Shown here: positions 7,900 through 39,673 of the stretch, in pieces
Position numbering within the stretch: position 1 is the first letter of the stretch
Layout of the letters: each line of letters starts with the position of its first letter
Made by a program: the position numbers and the translations under genes
The notes under the pieces: model-generated
The model's input: the letters and a program-made list of their open reading frames with translations, nothing else
The model's database searches: none
What the model was told of the DNA's origin: nothing
Source: Elusimicrobiota bacterium
GTDB taxonomy: Bacteria > Elusimicrobiota > Elusimicrobia > UBA1565 > UBA9628
Direction: 5' to 3'
Length of the DNA: 47,798 nucleotides
Assembly (NCBI GenBank): GCA_016191335.1
Contig: JACPOW010000009.1
Span: 1 to 47,798, forward strand

Positions 7900-8549
7900 T
7901 GTACTGCCCCGCGTGCGGCGTGCGCGCGAAGGAGGGCGCCCTCGCCTGCGCGAGCTGCGCGCTGATCTTCTCGAAATGGAAGCCGAAGGCCCCGCCGCCC
8001 GCGCGCGGGTCCGCGGTCGTGAGGCTCGACGCCCCCGTTGTCCGTTCCCCGGCGGCATGGGGGGCCCTCGTCGCCGGCGCCGTCGTCCTGTTCGCCCTGC
8101 GGGACTGGTTCCGCGGCGCCTTCTTCTTCCTCGACGGCGTCTCCCTCGCGGTGCACGAGGCGGGCCACGTCGTCTTCGGCCTCCTCGGAAGCCGCTTCGT
8201 GATGATGGCCGGCGGCACCGCGCTCCAGCTCGCCATGCCGCTGGCCTTCGCGCTGGATTTCCGCCGCCGCGGCCAGCCGCGCTCGTCCGCCGCCTGCGTC
8301 GCGTGGGTCGGCCAGAACCTTCTGAACGTCGGGCGCTACGCGGCCGACGCGCGCGCCCAGCAGCTGCCGCTCGTCGGCGGCGGCGAGCACGACTGGACCT
8401 ATCTGCTCGAGGTCGTGGGGCTGCTCCGCCGCGACGCCGAGGTGGGGGCGGCCTTCGACTTCGCCGGCTGCCTGCTCATCGCGTGGGCCGCGCTCTCGGT
8501 CTGGGAGCGGACCAGAGCGCTTCGCCATCCTTCGTTTCTTGAAAAATAG
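7899..8549 (+). CDS. Zinc-ribbon membrane protein with HEAGH motif (possible M50-like metalloprotease)
   Basis: A 216-residue protein. The N-terminus is a small zinc ribbon (Cys3, Cys6, Cys17, Cys20) followed by a proline/basic linker. Then come hydrophobic segments (AAWGALVAGAVVLFALRDW and later ones). HEAGH at residues 86-90 lies at a membrane edge and fits HExxH, the zinc site of membrane metalloproteases. A later NLLNVGRYAADAR could hold a third ligand, as the NxxPxxxxDG-like motif does in M50 enzymes, but the match is weak. The start overlaps the asnB stop by one base, so it is translationally coupled. I do not recognise a named family. Membrane location is well supported; peptidase activity is inferred from one motif. 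Confidence 0.7.
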   Translation: MYCPACGVRAKEGALACASCALIFSKWKPKAPPPARGSAVVRLDAPVVRSPAAWGALVAGAVVLFALRDWFRGAFFFLDGVSLAVHEAGHVVFGLLGSRFVMMAGGTALQLAMPLAFALDFRRRGQPRSSAACVAWVGQNLLNVGRYAADARAQQLPLVGGGEHDWTYLLEVVGLLRRDAEVGAAFDFAGCLLIAWAALSVWERTRALRHPSFLEK

Positions 8550-8573
8550 TCTTTTAAAAATAGGCGTTAATCA

Positions 8574-8589
8574 CATCACTTAAGTGATG
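8574..8589. promoter_or_regulatory. Perfect 16-bp palindrome upstream of the transglutaminase-like gene
   Basis: CATCACTTAAGTGATG is fully self-complementary with no loop. It lies in an A/T-rich 103-bp gap (8550-8652), 64 bp before the ATG at 8653, in an otherwise high-GC window. The symmetry and lack of a loop fit a dimeric regulator site better than a terminator. A weak TATCGT box follows at 8641-8646, 6 nt before the ATG. Function is inferred. Confidence 0.4.
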
Positions 8590-8652
8590 CGAATTTCAGC
8601 GGGAATCTCAGCGTTATTTTTTCGAAAACGCAGGAATTTTTATCGTTACGAC

Positions 8653-9483
8653 ATGAACACCCGAAGCCTTATCCTCGCCGCATCGCTCCTGTCGCCGGCC
8701 GCCGTCGAAGCCGCGCCCGGGCCGTCTCCCGAGCAAGCCGTGGCCCGGGCCATGGTCCGGATGCGCGCCGACCTGAGTTACCGCCCGGAGCTTCCCGCGG
8801 CGCGCGGCCCGCATGAGTGGAGCGCCCGGCGGGTGCTCGACGCGGGCACCGTCAACGGCTGCGTCGAGTCCGCCAAGGCGTTCTTCACCTTCCTGCGCGA
8901 GGCGTGCCCGTCGTGCCGGGCCCTTTACCTCGACTCGTTCAAGGCCGCCGGGCAAGGGGGGCACGCGGTGGTCCAGGTGACGGGCTCGGACGGCCGGGAT
9001 TTCCTCGTCGACGCCGCCTCCTTCGAGCGCCTGCCGGGGGCCGTCGCGGTGGATGACGCCGCCCTCGCGCTGTCCGTCGACATACGCAAGGACAGGAAGG
9101 GGAAGGTCGTCCAGCTCAAGGAGCGCGGCGACGTCTTCCTGGAAAAGACCGGCGGGGCCTACGCGATGACCGTCTATCCGCCCGGGGAGGTCTTCGACGG
9201 GAAGGTCCTTTCGAGCAAGTCGGTCGGTACTCTGGCCGAGCTCAATCGGGCTCTGGCGGACCACGCCGCCGGGGCCGGCGTCGATTTCGCCTGGCTGCGC
9301 GACTACGGCCTCATCCTGCCGTTCGCCGACCCGGAGAAGACGAGCTTCGTGTACACCGATCCCGACGGAGGCCTGGCCCTCTACGTGATCTACGGCCGCT
9401 TCGCGGCCTTGCCGGAGCCCGACGACGCCGAGACGCGCGAGCCGGCCGCCCGCGAGCGCCGCGCCCGGACCCGCGCCCGTTAA
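8653..9483 (+). CDS. Secreted transglutaminase-like cysteine protein
   Basis: 276 residues from the ATG at 8653. This start is preferred to the in-frame ATG at 8584 because it begins directly with a signal peptide (MNTRSLILAASLLSPAAVEA). The mature part shows the spacing of a papain-like transglutaminase core: Cys70 in NGCVESAKAFF, His104 in GQGGHAVVQV and Asp120 in DFLVDAASF. Such secreted domains act as cysteine peptidases or cross-linking enzymes. The C-terminus is Arg/Glu rich. It stands alone after the asnB run and overlaps the marC 3' end by 4 bp (convergent). The family call rests on the Cys/His/Asp triad; substrate and true activity are unknown. Confidence 0.65.
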   Translation: MNTRSLILAASLLSPAAVEAAPGPSPEQAVARAMVRMRADLSYRPELPAARGPHEWSARRVLDAGTVNGCVESAKAFFTFLREACPSCRALYLDSFKAAGQGGHAVVQVTGSDGRDFLVDAASFERLPGAVAVDDAALALSVDIRKDRKGKVVQLKERGDVFLEKTGGAYAMTVYPPGEVFDGKVLSSKSVGTLAELNRALADHAAGAGVDFAWLRDYGLILPFADPEKTSFVYTDPDGGLALYVIYGRFAALPEPDDAETREPAARERRARTRAR

Positions 9484-10091
9484 CCGAGCTTGAGGGCGGA
9501 GAGGATCAGCTGCACGCCGATCGCCGCCAGCAGCAGACCCATCAGGCGGGTGATGATGTTGAGGATGGTGGGGGAGAGCTTCTTGGCGCTGTCGGCGGCG
9601 ACGGTCAGCACCCAGTAGCTGATCAGGGCGACCGCGGCGATGGAGAGGAACACGAGCGCCTTCTGCGGCAGGCTCGTGGCCCGGCCCACCTGGACGATCG
9701 AGGTGGTGATGGCGCCGGGGCCCGCCAGGAGGGGGACGGCGAGCGGGGTGATGGCGATGTCGTCCTTGCTCATGCCCTCGGCGAACTCCTCGGGCGTCTC
9801 CTTCATCGGGGACTTCTGGGCGCGGATCATGTCCAGCGACGACAGCAGGAGCACGAGGCCGCCGGCGATCTGGAAGGCGGCCAGGGTGATCCCGAACAGC
9901 TTGAAGATGGCCGGTCCGAGCAGGCCGAAGATGCCCATCACGCCGGCGCAGACGAGGCAGGCGGTGCGCGCCATGCGGCGGCGCTGCTCGGCGGTGTCGC
10001 GGGCGGTCAACGCGAGGAAGGTCGGGACCGCCGCGAAGGGGTCCACGATCGCGAAGAGCGAGCCGAACGTCAGGAACGCGTATTCGAGCAC
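9480..10091 (-). CDS. marC: MarC-family integral membrane protein
   Basis: 203 residues from the GTG at 10091. An in-frame start further upstream would add 25 charged, Cys-rich residues and cross the promoter box, so it was not used. There are about six hydrophobic segments, beginning LEYAFLTFGSLFAIVDPFAA, and the family signature TPLAVPLLAGPGAITTSIVQ. MarC (UPF0056) proteins are inner-membrane proteins of uncertain function; the old link to antibiotic resistance is not supported in general. It is a single gene, convergent with the transglutaminase-like gene and divergent from the polysaccharide operon. TACAAT lies 6 nt before the GTG, so a leaderless mRNA is likely. Confidence 0.88.
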   Translation of the reverse strand: MLEYAFLTFGSLFAIVDPFAAVPTFLALTARDTAEQRRRMARTACLVCAGVMGIFGLLGPAIFKLFGITLAAFQIAGGLVLLLSSLDMIRAQKSPMKETPEEFAEGMSKDDIAITPLAVPLLAGPGAITTSIVQVGRATSLPQKALVFLSIAAVALISYWVLTVAADSAKKLSPTILNIITRLMGLLLAAIGVQLILSALKLG

Positions 10092-10097
10092 CCCGTC

Positions 10098-10121
10098 ATT
10101 GTAGCCTTTCCGCCGGAAAGG
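10098..10121 (-). promoter_or_regulatory. marC promoter with operator-like inverted repeat
   Basis: On the minus strand a TACAAT -10 box (10103-10098) stands 6 nt before the marC GTG. Directly upstream, within the -35/-10 spacer, is CCTTTCC-GGC-GGAAAGG (10121-10105), a perfect 7-bp inverted repeat with a 3-nt centre. A repressor bound there would block RNA polymerase. No good -35 box is visible at 17 bp. Confidence 0.45.
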
Positions 10122-10147
10122 TTCATTGCTCCCGGTCAAACATCGGC

Positions 10148-10186
10148 AGGCCCGGCACTTACGCAAATAACGGTAGGCCTGGCACC
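10148..10186 (-). repeat. Degenerate single-arm copy of the GGGGTC-type repeat
   Basis: Read on the minus strand, the segment starts GGTGCCAGGCCTACCGTT and continues into ATTTGCGTAAGTGCC. It aligns along its length with the arm of the palindromes at 33320 and 39598 (GGGGTCAGACCTCCCGTT...GCGT), with a handful of mismatches. AGGCCCGGCAC (10148-10158) and AGGCCTGGCAC (10175-10185) form a direct repeat within it. It lies between the divergent marC and ColD-like promoters. No second inverted arm is seen. Confidence 0.45.
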
Positions 10187-10207
10187 AAGGAATCGCCTTA
10201 AATTTCC

Positions 10208-10213
10208 TACAAT
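10208..10213 (+). promoter_or_regulatory. -10 box of the polysaccharide operon
   Basis: TACAAT stands 8 nt before the ATG at 10222, in a short A/T-rich patch. No ribosome-binding site fits between the box and the ATG, so the transcript would have at most a base or two of leader. A clear -35 box is lacking. Confidence 0.5.
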
Positions 10214-10221
10214 TGACGCCA

Positions 10222-19252: not shown

Positions 19253-20275
19253 TTAGGCGGCTTTCTTCGCGCGCAGGCGCGCGTTCTCGGCGTCGATCAG
19301 GGGGTCGATCAGGGCGTACACCGACCGCTCCTCCGCGCTCGCCAGCGCCCGGCTGTGGCGCGCGATGAGCCAGGCCTTGCGCGCCTCCTTGGCCAGCGAC
19401 AGCAGCGGGGAGGGGACCATGGTCGCCCGGTAGACGGGCATGGACTTGGCCTCGTCGCCGAGCTCCTTGAGCATGAACTCCCGGGCCTTCTCGGGCTGGA
19501 GGTTCTTGACGAGGTAGGAGGCGATCTCGCGGACGATCTTGCGCTTCTCGGCCTCGAGGATGTCGGGCGGCGTGCCGCCGGCTACGAGCGCGGCCATGCC
19601 CTCGGGGTACTCCTCGAGCCACTTGTGCGTGACCTGCCCCTCGTGGATTCGGCGGATGGCCAGGCGCTCGTAGATCACGCCGACTTCGACGCCGTCGGCG
19701 AGCATGCGCGCGTACAATTCATTATCCAGGATGATCATGTCCGAGCGATAATGGCCGTACTTCTTGTAGAGGGCGCGGGGAATGGCGAGGTTCGTCGTGA
19801 GGTAGGGCAGGAATTCCTCGCCCACGGCGTAATGGCCGGGCACCTTGCCCTCCTCGATCTTCATGCCGGGAGGGAAGGCGGTGCCGATAAGGCGATCGTA
19901 CCGGTGCAGCCAGCCGTCGGAGAACACGAAGCCGGCCTTGGGGCGCGCTTTGAAGAAGTCGGCGAACTTCTGGAGCCGGTCGAGCGTCCAGAAATCGTCC
20001 GAGTCGATGTTCGTGATCCAGGTGCCGGCGGCCATCTCGAGCGCCATGTTGCGGCAGGCCATGTTGCCGATGTTCTTGGGCACCCGCGTGTACTTGAAGC
20101 GCGGGTCCTTCGTCCATTCCTTGATCATCTCCGGCGTCTCGTCCACCGACCCGTCGTCGACGATCAGGACCTCGTAGTCGCCGAAGGTCTGGCCGACGAC
20201 GGTGGCCAGGGCCCCGGGCAGCATGTGGGCCCGGTTGTAGGTGGGCAGGACGATGGAGAAGAGCGGCTCGCTCAC
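19253..20275 (-). CDS. Glycosyltransferase family 2
   Basis: 340 residues from ATG 20275. The GT2 motifs are FSIVLPTYNRAHMLPGALAT, DYEVLIVDDGSVDETPEM and WITNIDSDDFWTLDRLQ, with the DxD-type metal site in SDD. HRYDRLIGTAFPPG and IRRIHEGQVTHKWLE lie in the acceptor half. The ATG overlaps the glutathione peroxidase stop by 4 bp, an unexpected pairing. It faces the polysaccharide operon tail to tail and may add to the same glycan, which is inference. Confidence 0.87.
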   Translation of the reverse strand: MSEPLFSIVLPTYNRAHMLPGALATVVGQTFGDYEVLIVDDGSVDETPEMIKEWTKDPRFKYTRVPKNIGNMACRNMALEMAAGTWITNIDSDDFWTLDRLQKFADFFKARPKAGFVFSDGWLHRYDRLIGTAFPPGMKIEEGKVPGHYAVGEEFLPYLTTNLAIPRALYKKYGHYRSDMIILDNELYARMLADGVEVGVIYERLAIRRIHEGQVTHKWLEEYPEGMAALVAGGTPPDILEAEKRKIVREIASYLVKNLQPEKAREFMLKELGDEAKSMPVYRATMVPSPLLSLAKEARKAWLIARHSRALASAEERSVYALIDPLIDAENARLRAKKAA

Positions 20276-20862
20276 GCCAGCAGGGCCTCGATCTTGGAGG
20301 CGATCTCCTTGCCGACGGGGTTGGCGTCGGGGCCGAAGCGGGCGACGACGGTCCCGTCCTTATCGACGAGGAATTTTGAGAAGTTCCAGGGGATGTCGCC
20401 GTTGAAGCCCGACTCCGTCGTCAGGTACTTGTACAGCGGGTGGATGGACGGCCCCTTCACGCTGATCTTCGAGTAGAGGTCGAAGGAGAGCGCGAACTTG
20501 GTCATGCAGAAGCTCTTGATGTCGGCGTCGGTGCCGGGCTCCTGCGCGCCGAACTCGTTGGCGGGGAAGGCGGCGATGCGCAGGCCCTTGTCCTTGTACT
20601 TCTTGTACAGCGCCTCGAGGTCCGTGTATTGCGGGGTGAAGCCGCACAGCGACGCGGTGTTGACGATGAGCAGGGGGTGGCCCTTGTACTTCGAGAGCTT
20701 CGCGGGCTTGCCGTCGATGGTGTTCATCTCGAACTCGTAGACGCGGCCCTTGGTCTTGTCGGCTTGCATCGGGTTCACCTCGTTCTTCCTGGTCAAGGCG
20801 GCGCCCGCGGCGAACGCCGCCTCGGTCAGCCCCAGCTTGGCCTTGCGAAGGATGTCCTTCAT
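20272..20862 (-). CDS. Glutathione peroxidase-family (thioredoxin-dependent) thiol peroxidase
   Basis: 196 residues. Active site NTASLCGFTPQYTDLEALY: peroxidatic Cys73 (a Cys, not Sec), Gln78, and Trp159 in DIPWNFSKFLVD. Cys119 in KSFCMTKFALSFDLYSKI sits where thioredoxin-type GPx enzymes carry the resolving Cys, so thioredoxin is the likely reductant. It reduces hydrogen or lipid peroxides. The first ~30 residues (Ala-rich, one basic patch) extend beyond the usual start; Met32 could be the true start of a shorter form. However, TAGAAT lies 6 nt before the ATG at 20862, which supports the long form as a leaderless mRNA. Confidence 0.9.
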   Translation of the reverse strand: MKDILRKAKLGLTEAAFAAGAALTRKNEVNPMQADKTKGRVYEFEMNTIDGKPAKLSKYKGHPLLIVNTASLCGFTPQYTDLEALYKKYKDKGLRIAAFPANEFGAQEPGTDADIKSFCMTKFALSFDLYSKISVKGPSIHPLYKYLTTESGFNGDIPWNFSKFLVDKDGTVVARFGPDANPVGKEIASKIEALLA

Positions 20863-20868
20863 TATCTG

Positions 20869-20874
20869 ATTCTA
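20869..20874 (-). promoter_or_regulatory. -10 box of the glutathione peroxidase/GT2 pair
   Basis: TAGAAT on the minus strand, 6 nt before the ATG at 20862. Transcription should start at or next to the A of the ATG. The -35 region would fall on the GGGG end of the 29-bp repeat at 20895; no -35 consensus is seen. Confidence 0.5.
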
Positions 20875-20894
20875 CCTTTCGTATGCGGGGATTA

Positions 20895-20923
20895 GGGGTC
20901 AGGCACGCAAATTCGTTGAATTC
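20895..20923 (+). repeat. 29-bp inverted repeat, left arm (cargo-bearing palindromic element)
   Basis: GGGGTCAGGCACGCAAATTC continuing to 20923 (..GTTGAATTC). Its exact reverse complement lies at 22139-22167. With one mismatch the match extends inward to 34 bp (20895-20928 against 22134-22167). It supplies the stop codon and last residues of the GmhB-like gene. The outward-facing GGGGTC end matches the short palindromes at 33320 and 39598. Confidence 0.85.
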
Positions 20924-21459
20924 TTTTCGACGATCCAGCGGGCCGCGGCCAGGATGTCGCGGCGGACGGCCGTGGGTCTCGCCTTGTAGGCCTTGTCCTT
21001 GCCGCCGTTGCCGGTCCGCACGAGGACCGAGGCGCAGCCGGCCCGCCGGGCGCACTCGATGTCCGAGGTCTTGTCGCCGATCACGAAGGAGCCCTTCAGG
21101 TCGAGGCCGAACCTCTTCCTGGCGGCCAGGAGCATGCCCGTCCCGGGCTTGCGCCAGGAGTGGCCGCTGTCGGGGCCGTGAGGCGAGTAGTAGATCGCGT
21201 CCCAGCGCGCCCCGGCCTTGGCCAGGCGGCGCTTCAGCTCGGCGTGGATCCTCCGCACGGCCGCCTCGGTGAAGTAGCCGCGGGCGACGCCGGACTGGTT
21301 GGTGACGATGACGATCTTGAAGCCCGCCTCGCGCAGGAGCTTGAGCGCCCGGGGGGAGCCTTTGAAGACGGACAGGCCGTCGGTCGTGGCCAGATGGTCC
21401 GCGTCGCGGATGAGGACGCCGTCGCGGTCGATGAAGACGGCCTTGGGGCGGGGCTTCAC
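20899..21459 (-). CDS. HAD phosphatase, GmhB/HisB-N-like, lacking the zinc-loop cysteines
   Basis: 186 residues from GTG 21459. HAD motif I is VFIDRDGVLIRD (Asp11 nucleophile, Asp13), motif II IVTNQSGVARGYF, and the later motifs RKPGTGMLL and VIGDKTSDIECARRAG. This is the D-glycero-D-manno-heptose 1,7-bisphosphate 7-phosphatase group. GmhB normally binds zinc through Cys-x-His...Cys-x-Cys before RKP; here the loop is YYSPHGPDSGHSWRKP, with Ser, His and Trp where cysteines belong. It may have lost zinc or may act on another phosphosugar. Its last residues (NSTNLRA) and TGA are encoded by the 29-bp repeat. Substrate is uncertain. Confidence 0.82.
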   Translation of the reverse strand: MKPRPKAVFIDRDGVLIRDADHLATTDGLSVFKGSPRALKLLREAGFKIVIVTNQSGVARGYFTEAAVRRIHAELKRRLAKAGARWDAIYYSPHGPDSGHSWRKPGTGMLLAARKRFGLDLKGSFVIGDKTSDIECARRAGCASVLVRTGNGGKDKAYKARPTAVRRDILAAARWIVEKNSTNLRA

Positions 21460-21465
21460 CCCAGG

Positions 21466-21471
21466 ATTCTA
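21466..21471 (-). promoter_or_regulatory. -10 box of the GmhB-like gene
   Basis: TAGAAT on the minus strand, 6 nt before the GTG at 21459, placed in the 13-bp gap just after the stop codon of the secreted protein gene. It implies separate, leaderless transcription of the phosphatase gene although it follows another gene closely. Confidence 0.5.
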
Positions 21472-21472
21472 G

Positions 21473-22054
21473 CTATTTGGCGAGAGCGGCGGCCCAGTCG
21501 AGGACGCGGAGCCAGAGCCGCTGGAGGCGCTGGCGCGCGGTCAGGACGGCGGGCCGCACGCCGAGGTGCCGAAGGACGGCGCGCTGGACGGCGGGGGTGA
21601 CCGCGGCCGGGACCGAACCGGAACCGGCGAAGACGGATGTGCCGTCCGGTTGGAGCTGATAGGAATAGCCGCCGAGTTTGGTCCGATCCCGTCCCGGGGG
21701 CAAGGCGTCGCTGTGGCCGCGCACTCCCCAGGAGCCGAGTGAGAACGCGTTGAGCACGCGCGTCGTGCCCGTCTCGAAGATGCCGATCACGGGGCGGCCG
21801 TCGGTCTGGCTGACGGCCTTCAGCAGCTCGGGGGCGCCGAAGGCCCGCGTGTCGATGAGGCTCGAGCCCAGCTTCACGAACGGGGTTCCGGGGACCTCGA
21901 CCCAAGGCTTGAGCGGGCCCGCGCCGTCGAAGGACACCGCCGCCGCGCCGAGAGGCGAGGCCGCGGCCAAGGCGGCGGGAGCGGCGCGGACGGGGGCCTC
22001 GACGACGCCCGCGGAGGCGGGCGCGGCCAGCAAGAGGACGAGCCAAAGCTTCAC
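21473..22054 (-). CDS. Secreted protein of unknown function
   Basis: 193 residues from GTG 22054 with a signal peptide (VKLWLVLLLAAPASAGVV). The mature part has SFDGAGPLKPWVEVPGTPFV, GSSLIDTRAFGAPELLKA and RPVIGIFETGTTRVLNAFSL, then a Gly-rich stretch with KLGGYSYQLQPDGTSVFAGS. The C-terminal 40 residues look helical (RQRLQRLWLRVLDWAAALAK). I do not recognise a family. It lies with the GmhB-like gene between the inverted repeats. Confidence 0.65.
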   Translation of the reverse strand: MKLWLVLLLAAPASAGVVEAPVRAAPAALAAASPLGAAAVSFDGAGPLKPWVEVPGTPFVKLGSSLIDTRAFGAPELLKAVSQTDGRPVIGIFETGTTRVLNAFSLGSWGVRGHSDALPPGRDRTKLGGYSYQLQPDGTSVFAGSGSVPAAVTPAVQRAVLRHLGVRPAVLTARQRLQRLWLRVLDWAAALAK

Positions 22055-22060
22055 CGAGCC

Positions 22061-22066
22061 ATTATG
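22061..22066 (-). promoter_or_regulatory. -10 box of the secreted protein gene
   Basis: CATAAT on the minus strand, 6 nt before the GTG at 22054, the same spacing as at several other genes here. No -35 consensus is seen. Confidence 0.4.
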
Positions 22067-22138
22067 GCGGGATTCCCCTCGCGCCGTAAGGGTCGAAAGG
22101 CCCCGAAATCCCGGCCGGAAGGCCTGCGGGCCGGAAGA

Positions 22139-22167
22139 GAATTCAACGAATTTGCGTGCCTGACCCC
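22139..22167 (-). repeat. 29-bp inverted repeat, right arm
   Basis: The exact reverse complement of 20895-20923, ending GTGCCTGACCCC, 8 bp from the stop codon of the deacetylase gene. Between the two arms lie 1,215 bp holding two whole genes with their own promoters. The outer flanks show no target-site duplication. Confidence 0.85.
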
Positions 22168-22175
22168 CAAATCAA

Positions 22176-23162
22176 CTAGGACAGGCGGTGGCGGGCGGCT
22201 TGGAGGAGGTTGCGGCCGAGGCTGAAGGTCATGCGGAACTTCTCGAAGGAGTCGCGGTCGTCGGTGCCGAAGCGGCGCAGCGCGTAGGGGTCGGAGCCGG
22301 GGGTGGTGAAGCCGGCGACGGTGGTGAGGCCGCAGAGGTAGCCGGTCTCCTTGAGCAGGCGCGCGGAGTCGGCGCTGAAGTCGTCGAAGTCGCCGTTCGG
22401 GTAGCAGAACAGGTCGCAGCGGCGCTGGACGTTCTTCTCCACGAGGGCCTTGGACCGCGCGAGCTCGTCGCGCGCGGCCTCCGCGCCGTGGAGGGTGACG
22501 ATGGTGTGGGTGTGGGTGTGGCTGCCGATCTCCATCAGGCCGGAGTCGGCCATCTCCTTGGCCTGCGCCCAGGTCACGGGGCGGTAGTTCTCCGGGGCCG
22601 AGGCGTCGAGGACCAGCTTGCGGCCGAGCTCGGCCTCGACGGGCGCGATCAGGGCCTCGCGCGCGCCGGGGAGCAGGGACTTGGCGCGGCGCTGGAGGTC
22701 CTTGAGGCGCTCGCGGCGCGCGGCGGCGTCGCCGGGGGCGCCCGCGAAGGCGTGCTCGAGGCGGTCGGGCCACAGGGGGACGCGTTCGTCGACGAACTGG
22801 GTGGCGACGAACAAGGTCGAGGGAACGCCGGCCTCGCGCAGGACGGGGAAGCCCAGGGTGTACACCGACTCGTAGCCGTCGTCGATGGTCAGGGCGACCG
22901 CGTAGTCGGGCAAAGCCGGCCCGCCCGAGAGCGAGGCCGCGACCTGGCGCAAGGTCACGAGATGGCAGTTGTCCTTGAGGAAGGCGAGCTGACGGCGGAA
23001 GGTGGACTGCTGGAGACGGTTCCCTTGATAGTTGACGATCCCGTCGGAGGGGCGGTCGGTGAAGCCGTGATACATGAGAACCACGGCGCTCTTACGCCGC
23101 AGCCAGCGCACGGGCCGGTCGAGGCCCAGGGCGAGCGCCGCTTTCAGCAAGGTCGCTTTCAT
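22176..23162 (-). CDS. Polysaccharide deacetylase (NodB domain)
   Basis: 328 residues, ATG 23162, ATGA overlap with the GNAT gene. The NodB motifs are LTIDDGYESVYTLGFPVL (metal-binding and catalytic Asp) and MEIGSHTHTHT (metal His pair), then LFCYPNGDFDDFS and DPYALRRFGTDD. LMYHGFTDRPSDG near the N-terminus is typical of carbohydrate-esterase-4 proteins in exopolysaccharide clusters. It would remove N-acetyl groups from a glycan. No clear signal peptide: the N-terminus carries one hydrophobic stretch followed by basic residues, so it may be membrane-associated. Confidence 0.88.
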   Translation of the reverse strand: MKATLLKAALALGLDRPVRWLRRKSAVVLMYHGFTDRPSDGIVNYQGNRLQQSTFRRQLAFLKDNCHLVTLRQVAASLSGGPALPDYAVALTIDDGYESVYTLGFPVLREAGVPSTLFVATQFVDERVPLWPDRLEHAFAGAPGDAAARRERLKDLQRRAKSLLPGAREALIAPVEAELGRKLVLDASAPENYRPVTWAQAKEMADSGLMEIGSHTHTHTIVTLHGAEAARDELARSKALVEKNVQRRCDLFCYPNGDFDDFSADSARLLKETGYLCGLTTVAGFTTPGSDPYALRRFGTDDRDSFEKFRMTFSLGRNLLQAARHRLS

Positions 23163-33319: not shown

Positions 33320-33393
33320 GGGGTCTGACCTCCCGTTGTTGCGTTGTTCGGGAATAAAGCAGGGAATAACGCAACAACGGGAGGTCAGACCCC
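33320..33393. repeat. GGGGTC palindromic element (26-bp perfect arms)
   Basis: Left arm 33320-33345 begins GGGGTCTGACCTCCCGTTGT; right arm 33368-33393 is its exact reverse complement and ends GGTCAGACCCC. The 22-bp loop holds a direct repeat of GGGAATAA (33350 and 33362). It lies between the dnaE stop and the response regulator promoter. A long hairpin would form in RNA, so it could also terminate or stabilise transcripts. Confidence 0.88.
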
Positions 33394-39597: not shown

Positions 39598-39673
39598 GGG
39601 GTCAGACCTCCCGTTGTTGCGTTGTTTTGGTCGGCCCCGCGTTCAACAACGCAACAACGGCAGGTCTGACCCC
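39598..39673. repeat. GGGGTC palindromic element (29-bp arms, one mismatch)
   Basis: Left arm 39598-39626 begins GGGGTCAGACCTCCCGTTGT; right arm 39645-39673 ends GGCAGGTCTGACCCC. One mismatch (CTCCC against CTGCC) in 29 bp. Loop 18 bp. It fills the gap between two convergent genes, the patatin and the helical secreted protein, 4 bp after one stop and 3 bp from the other, so it may serve as their shared terminator. Confidence 0.88.

Follow-up and report, generated by a model that had tools for sequence, protein, structure and literature searches.

A gene pair between inverted repeat arms in an Elusimicrobiota genome, best read as a resident segment turned in place

The gene pair and its arms

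In the window, by which is meant the whole 47,798-nt stretch of DNA that was analysed, two genes lie between inverted copies of a 29-bp repeat, here called arms, that are 1,215 bp apart (Table 1). The outer neighbours, a glycosyltransferase gene and a glutathione-peroxidase-like gene (GPX) on the left and a polysaccharide-deacetylase-like gene on the right, are on the minus strand, as are the two enclosed genes. The first of these (GMHB) had been annotated as encoding a GmhB-like phosphatase; its product is GmhB/HAD-IIIA-like, but its score of 167.6 stays under the NCBIfam GmhB cut-off of 178. The second (SEC) encodes a 193-aa protein that the same initial annotation called secreted; a signal-like N-terminus, judged by eye, makes it a putative secreted protein, but neither Pfam nor NCBIfam gives a match. 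Among 44 genomes of the taxonomic family, SEC was found in six, all of one genus and each with a single copy. A scan of positions 20700-22400 gave neither promoter-like sites nor terminators, which leaves the -10 box once proposed for each gene unsupported and sets aside promoters or terminators at the ends of the segment.

Table 1. Features of the segment, its neighbours and two short elements in the window
Feature	Position	Strand	Remark
Glutathione-peroxidase-like gene (GPX)	20272..20862	-	left neighbour outside the segment; fixed orientation reference
Left arm	20895..20923	+	GGGGTCAGGCACGCAAATTCGTTGAATTC; overlaps the 3' end of GMHB and gives it its stop codon
GmhB/HAD-IIIA-like phosphatase gene (GMHB)	20899..21459	-	between the arms
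Putative secreted protein gene (SEC)	21473..22054	-	between the arms; no family match
Right arm	22139..22167	-	left arm in exact reverse complement; the deacetylase gene's 3' end lies 8 bp away
Polysaccharide-deacetylase-like gene	22176..23162	-	right neighbour outside the segment
Short two-armed palindromic element	33320..33393	.	second arm family (GGGGTCTGACCTCCCGTTG...)
Short two-armed palindromic element	39598..39673	.	second arm family (GGGGTCAGACCTCCCGTTG...)

The two arms are, as first described, exact reverse complements over 29 bp with their GGGGTC ends pointing outward, and the match extends to 37 nt at 95 % identity. By simple arithmetic, an exact inverted repeat of 29 bp is expected about 1e-8 times per 48 kb, and this exactness, together with the number of copies in the genome, rules out a chance origin. 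A search of the genome from which the window comes (G000; 135 contigs, 3.66 Mb in total) gave 26 copies of the arm, allowing up to three mismatches in 19 bases, as against none for a reversed control pattern. Eighteen of the copies form nine inverted pairs measuring 58-118 bp end to end, two are the window arms and six are unpaired, so that the idea of a repeat family with paired layouts was borne out. Across the 19 genomes of the genus comparison set, a broader arm pattern is present in nine, with just stray matches in G009 (one) and G012 (two).

The same locus in relatives

A 3.9-kb piece around the segment was searched in the 19 genus genomes, and 20 stretches from 17 relatives were compared. 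GMHB and SEC occupy the same place in the same order in G004, G014 and G017. The left arm is at the locus in G000, G004, G014, G015 and G017, whereas an intact right arm is found in G000 and G004 and none in G014 and G017; G015 has lost SEC, and at the right-arm position has a 19/29 match, possibly a degenerate arm, that one in 5000 shuffles equalled. The phosphatase gene adjoins GPX in G001, G005, G009, G010 and G012, and no arm pair was seen at these five junctions, which were read by eye with G016 left out. Additionally, no empty two-armed site turned up at this locus in the stretches compared, and the genes keep to one place in G004, G014 and G017, so that neither hallmark of a mobile cassette (more than one place, or an empty site) was found. 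Since both genes are present in G014 and G017 with the left arm only, the right arm is unnecessary for their presence, and the earlier proposal of a palindromic element that had captured or moved the pair was not upheld. Relatives that carry both genes free of the repeats, which that proposal had named as evidence against itself, exist as far as the right arm goes, but these same two genomes retain the left one. Based on these comparisons, the two genes are most likely residents of the locus rather than imported cargo. G014 and G017 group together in the GMHB tree (97/93) and may share one allele, in which case they count once rather than twice.

The orientation of the segment differs between species. 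Of the 12 genomes with GPX and GMHB on one compared stretch, five (G000, G004, G014, G015 and G017) have both genes on the same strand and seven (G001, G005, G009, G010, G011, G012 and G016) have them on opposite strands. The opposite-strand arrangement is probably the older state, because four of its carriers, G001, G009, G010 and G016, branch outside the others in both the GPX and the GMHB trees. In G012, SEC and GMHB are both in the other orientation and arms are absent. In G011, two inverted arms that are alike at 27 of 29 positions enclose SEC alone, and relative to G012 it is SEC that is turned, whereas GMHB, which lies outside the G011 arms, is not; the arm type concerned has 28 matches in G011 and none in G000 or G012. 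The DNA upstream of SEC moves together with it. Thus, in two separate arrangements, that of G000 and G004 and that of G011, the turned DNA appears to be the DNA between arms, and the best reading of the comparison with relatives is that the window segment has been inverted in place. Both orientations of the segment are known between species, the unturned one being without arms. In G014 and G017 the segment is turned and the right arm missing, which implies that this arm was either lost there or gained later in G000 and G004.

The rpoB tree joins G000 with G004 (99/99), then adds G017 (100/99), and places G015 weakly with G012 (81/90). As the sole genome with both genes unturned, G012 bears on how often the segment turned, and since it has a long branch and is only weakly placed, it is uncertain how many turns there were. 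G014, in which no rpoB match was found, was placed by the trees of the locus genes only, and a very divergent rpoB copy in G015 (on contig C271) was taken to be foreign or a contaminant. In G004, an MsrP/sulfite-oxidase-like reading frame (a weak NCBIfam match) stands between GPX and the left arm; DNA resembling it lies at the same spot in G014 and G011 and is missing from G000, G015 and G017.

Arms, spacers and transposase across the genus

By the analyst's count, G000 has 18 arm sites and G004 has 16, all included in the comparison; 12 of them, with flanks about 89-96 % alike, are common to both and hold 23 shared arms. Sixteen of the 23 differ between the two genomes at the identical two positions, 3 and 11, with just five further differences among the 304 bases compared, and at these sites the flanks and, for the most part, the spacers are retained; the remaining seven comprise two unchanged arms (site C36), three that are of another type in G000 (the pair around the transposase gene, and C46) and two that are of another type in G004 (C31). 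At C50, C90 and C135, both arms have changed while spacer and flanks are retained. The window arms follow the same rule, being identical to each other within each genome and different between G000 and G004 at the two switch positions. G014 contains both arm types, and the place of the C51 site is occupied in G015, G013, G011 and G007 by arms whose inner sequences are quite different. The pattern is thus one of arms made uniform, within each genome, in the type that prevails there, by a mechanism that we infer, and the identity of the two window arms would owe to this homogenisation and not to their being the ends of one recently moved element. Switched arms could arise by conversion, by repeated re-insertion at the same place or by selection acting on each arm; the kept spacers argue against re-insertion. 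Arms switched at kept sites, several with spacer and flanks retained, together with spacers that occur in both orientations, narrow the possibilities to in-place conversion or reworking. In the literature found, covered through titles and abstract openings and thinly for subscription journals, no report of in-place conversion or inversion of such arms came up. Gene conversion was reportedly proposed in the title of a 1988 paper by Higgins.

The spacers of short elements also turn. Eight two-armed sites are common to G000 and G004, and spacer orientation could be read at seven, with four the same and three (C119, C36 and C9) turned between unturned flanks; the eighth, C31, was unclear, and C105 was scored as the same despite spacers of 30 and 155 bp. 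The flip at C36 is unambiguous, with 54 of 58 bases matching in reverse. A shuffle control, which covered seven comparisons and left out C36 and C105, gave p = 0.054 for C119, 0.014 for C9 against G004 and 0.008 against G014, and 0.018 for the C52 spacer, turned between G004 and G017. The longer spacers of C36 in G000 and C9 in G004, which are unrelated sites, have 113 bp in common at 87 %, as though the arms enclosed another, nested repeat.

Genes lie between arms at other sites as well. At C51 of G000 (8079-10214), a 2-kb autotransporter gene (PF03797; 673 aa) is situated between arms at 8079 and 10194. Both flanks of this site were found in 17 relatives, with at most 250 bp between them in 13 and 0.8-1.1 kb in four; no long match to the autotransporter gene occurs at the site in any of the 17, and G015, G013, G011 and G007 carry a short palindromic element there. 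It would seem from this comparison that genes can come to lie between arms, and to that extent the notion of gene capture has an example in the autotransporter, which stands where relatives have a palindrome or nothing, but not in the window pair. A further long arm pair surrounds a gene in G004 (C1), where G000 has just one arm. Two more long pairs in G011 (C1:13814-14386 and 3790466-3791621) each enclose an apparent single gene.

A RAYT/IS200-like transposase with ends matching the window arms, for which the initial annotation had recommended a search, does exist. In G000, G004, G014, G015 and G017, one IS200-like transposase gene, at a chromosomal place common to all five, lies between two inverted family arms with a spacing of about 0.8 kb, an extra single arm being situated about 2 kb upstream; in G013, the gene and its left arm are at that place, where the contig ends. 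The flanking arms vary by genome, and those in G014 are of the window's own type; the window genome itself has such a transposase too, but between arms of a sister type. All four transposases tested from the shared place score above the PF01797 cut-off, G000 holds six IS200-like (PF01797) genes, and for the NCBIfam REP-associated tyrosine transposase, whose cut-off is 80, the G004 protein reaches 77.2. Between species, the proteins at the shared place are 57-70 % identical in amino acids and the flanking DNA 81-93 % alike, which points to a transposase that is fast-evolving. It groups G000 with G017, whereas rpoB joins G000 with G004. The C-termini of three of the four matched Bac_DnaA_C and nothing else (E 0.029-0.092; 13-15 bits, under the Pfam cut-off of 31.5); the fourth C-terminus lacked this match, and the whole proteins gave nothing for it at E up to 0.1. 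No solved structure matches the G004 transposase at E 0.01.

Several known systems resemble this family. In TIRtrons, which are relatives of REP and REPIN elements, a RAYT-like tyrosine transposase gene (TIRYT) is flanked by terminal inverted repeats with the motif GGGGWSAS, and the repeats also occur elsewhere singly, paired or grouped (Di Nocera et al. 2013, PMC3733652). The family here likewise has a Y1 transposase between inverted arms as well as dispersed single and paired arms, and GGGGTCAG in the window arms fits the motif, to which the GGTGTCAG or AGTGTCAG of other arm types is an inexact fit; however, in-place rewriting of arms, inversion of spacers and a turned resident block are unreported in the available text of that paper. 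REPINs are short inverted repeat pairs tied to, or dispersed by, a tyrosine transposase that stays put (Bertels and Rainey 2011, PMC3116915, as far as its available text goes), and here too there are short inverted pairs linked to a transposase at one place. The arms lack the GTAG/GTGG head of REPs, however, and the wide gap of the window pair departs both from the close spacing of REPINs, such as the 71-bp distance of GI doublets in the same source, and from the nine close pairs of G000. In the orthoswitch, related strains have a transposase gene at a common chromosomal position with different classes of repeat around it, as is the case here; in that model, old repeats persist and degenerate as new ones are spreading (Nunvar et al. 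2013, PMC3686654), whereas in this genus the old sites themselves bear the new type, and several of them keep spacer and flanks. On the mechanism by which REP-like families change type genome-wide, the authors of the orthoswitch paper, in its available text, only speculate. Finally, the weak Bac_DnaA_C matches recall TnpAREP subclass 2.1, in which, according to the part of the source available, TIRYT-like Y1 transposases carry at the C-terminus a helix-turn-helix, Bac_DnaA_C for example (Quentin et al. 2018, PMC6006769), although such a likeness lies far under the cut-off.

Proposed mechanism and alternatives

The account that we favour, and hold to be probable, is that the window arms belong, as repeats of the terminal-inverted-repeat type, to a REP/TIR-associated tyrosine transposase family of the TIRtron/TIRYT kind, that such arms occupy fixed chromosomal sites in this Elusimicrobiota genus, and that the resident genes between them were inverted in place, with the arms being brought into line with the prevailing type of each genome. 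The inverted arms would have acted as exchange points for the turning, an agency that we infer, and candidate routes include recombination, replication strand switching, or single-strand cutting and rejoining of arms by the transposase. The findings would tie local inversion of resident genes to a transposase that looks domesticated. The 0.8-kb arm-bounded transposase unit, which has the identical orientation in all six genomes, counts against flipping as a general rule.

The main competitor, to which we give a smaller though appreciable chance, is that two arms inserted independently on either side of the resident genes and that the turned order reflects an unrelated, older rearrangement. The uneven distribution of the arms, the left in five genomes and the right intact in two, would follow naturally from this, as would the single arm of G000 at the place of the G004 pair on C1, and, given the rpoB grouping, the ancestor of G000 and G004 may have gained the right arm. 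However, separate insertions would not be expected to bound a turned stretch at both ends in two different arrangements, nor do they account for the flipping of spacers at other sites. They also sit poorly with the excess of inward-facing long pairs: transposase unit aside, G000 has two against 0.0135 expected at random, a figure that assumes ten randomly placed single arms, ten being the analyst's own count. The same excess is what would be predicted if arms and genes together formed a non-autonomous element, moving or having moved as a unit by means of a transposase elsewhere, as are the arm-flanked layout of the transposase gene itself and the autotransporter between arms at C51. For the window pair, this cargo explanation was rejected, the genes being resident at the locus in relatives, and it seems improbable: both genes occur at the same place without the right arm in G014 and G017, the phosphatase gene lies beside GPX without arms in five further genomes, and SEC is single-copy in every carrier. 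Least credible, to the point of being nearly dismissed, is a metagenome assembly artefact with false joins at inverted repeats. The genomes are indeed draft assemblies of 1 to 590 contigs, two of them identified as Elusimicrobiota MAGs, but five separate assemblies share the turned arrangement, and G011 consists of a single contig. Common short reads are longer than 29 bp, and the arms, or even a whole short element of 58-118 bp, fit inside one such read.

Beyond the favoured reading of inversion in place, a more speculative idea, possible but put forward tentatively, is that the arms are immobile slots, with a fast-evolving transposase copying the current arm onto old sites, flipping the contents of an arm pair, be they a short spacer or one or two resident genes, and occasionally admitting a new gene. 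If true, the family would spread new versions by rewriting old sites and not by jumping.

The two short elements of the window had been likened to the segment in layout, with arms of 26-29 bp and loops of 22 and 18 bp; the outer GGGGTC is common to both, but their arms belong to a second family and measure 30 nt, with 14 and 18 nt between them. Matches to this second family (GGGGTCAGACCTCCCGTTGTTG) number 26 in G000 and 48 in G015, where a transposase gene lies between two of its arms (within C152:6500-8677). In G000, two second-family arms are 4.1 kb apart (within C55:9000-16500), with ORFs inside that resemble, by eye, a response regulator, a sensor kinase and a permease.
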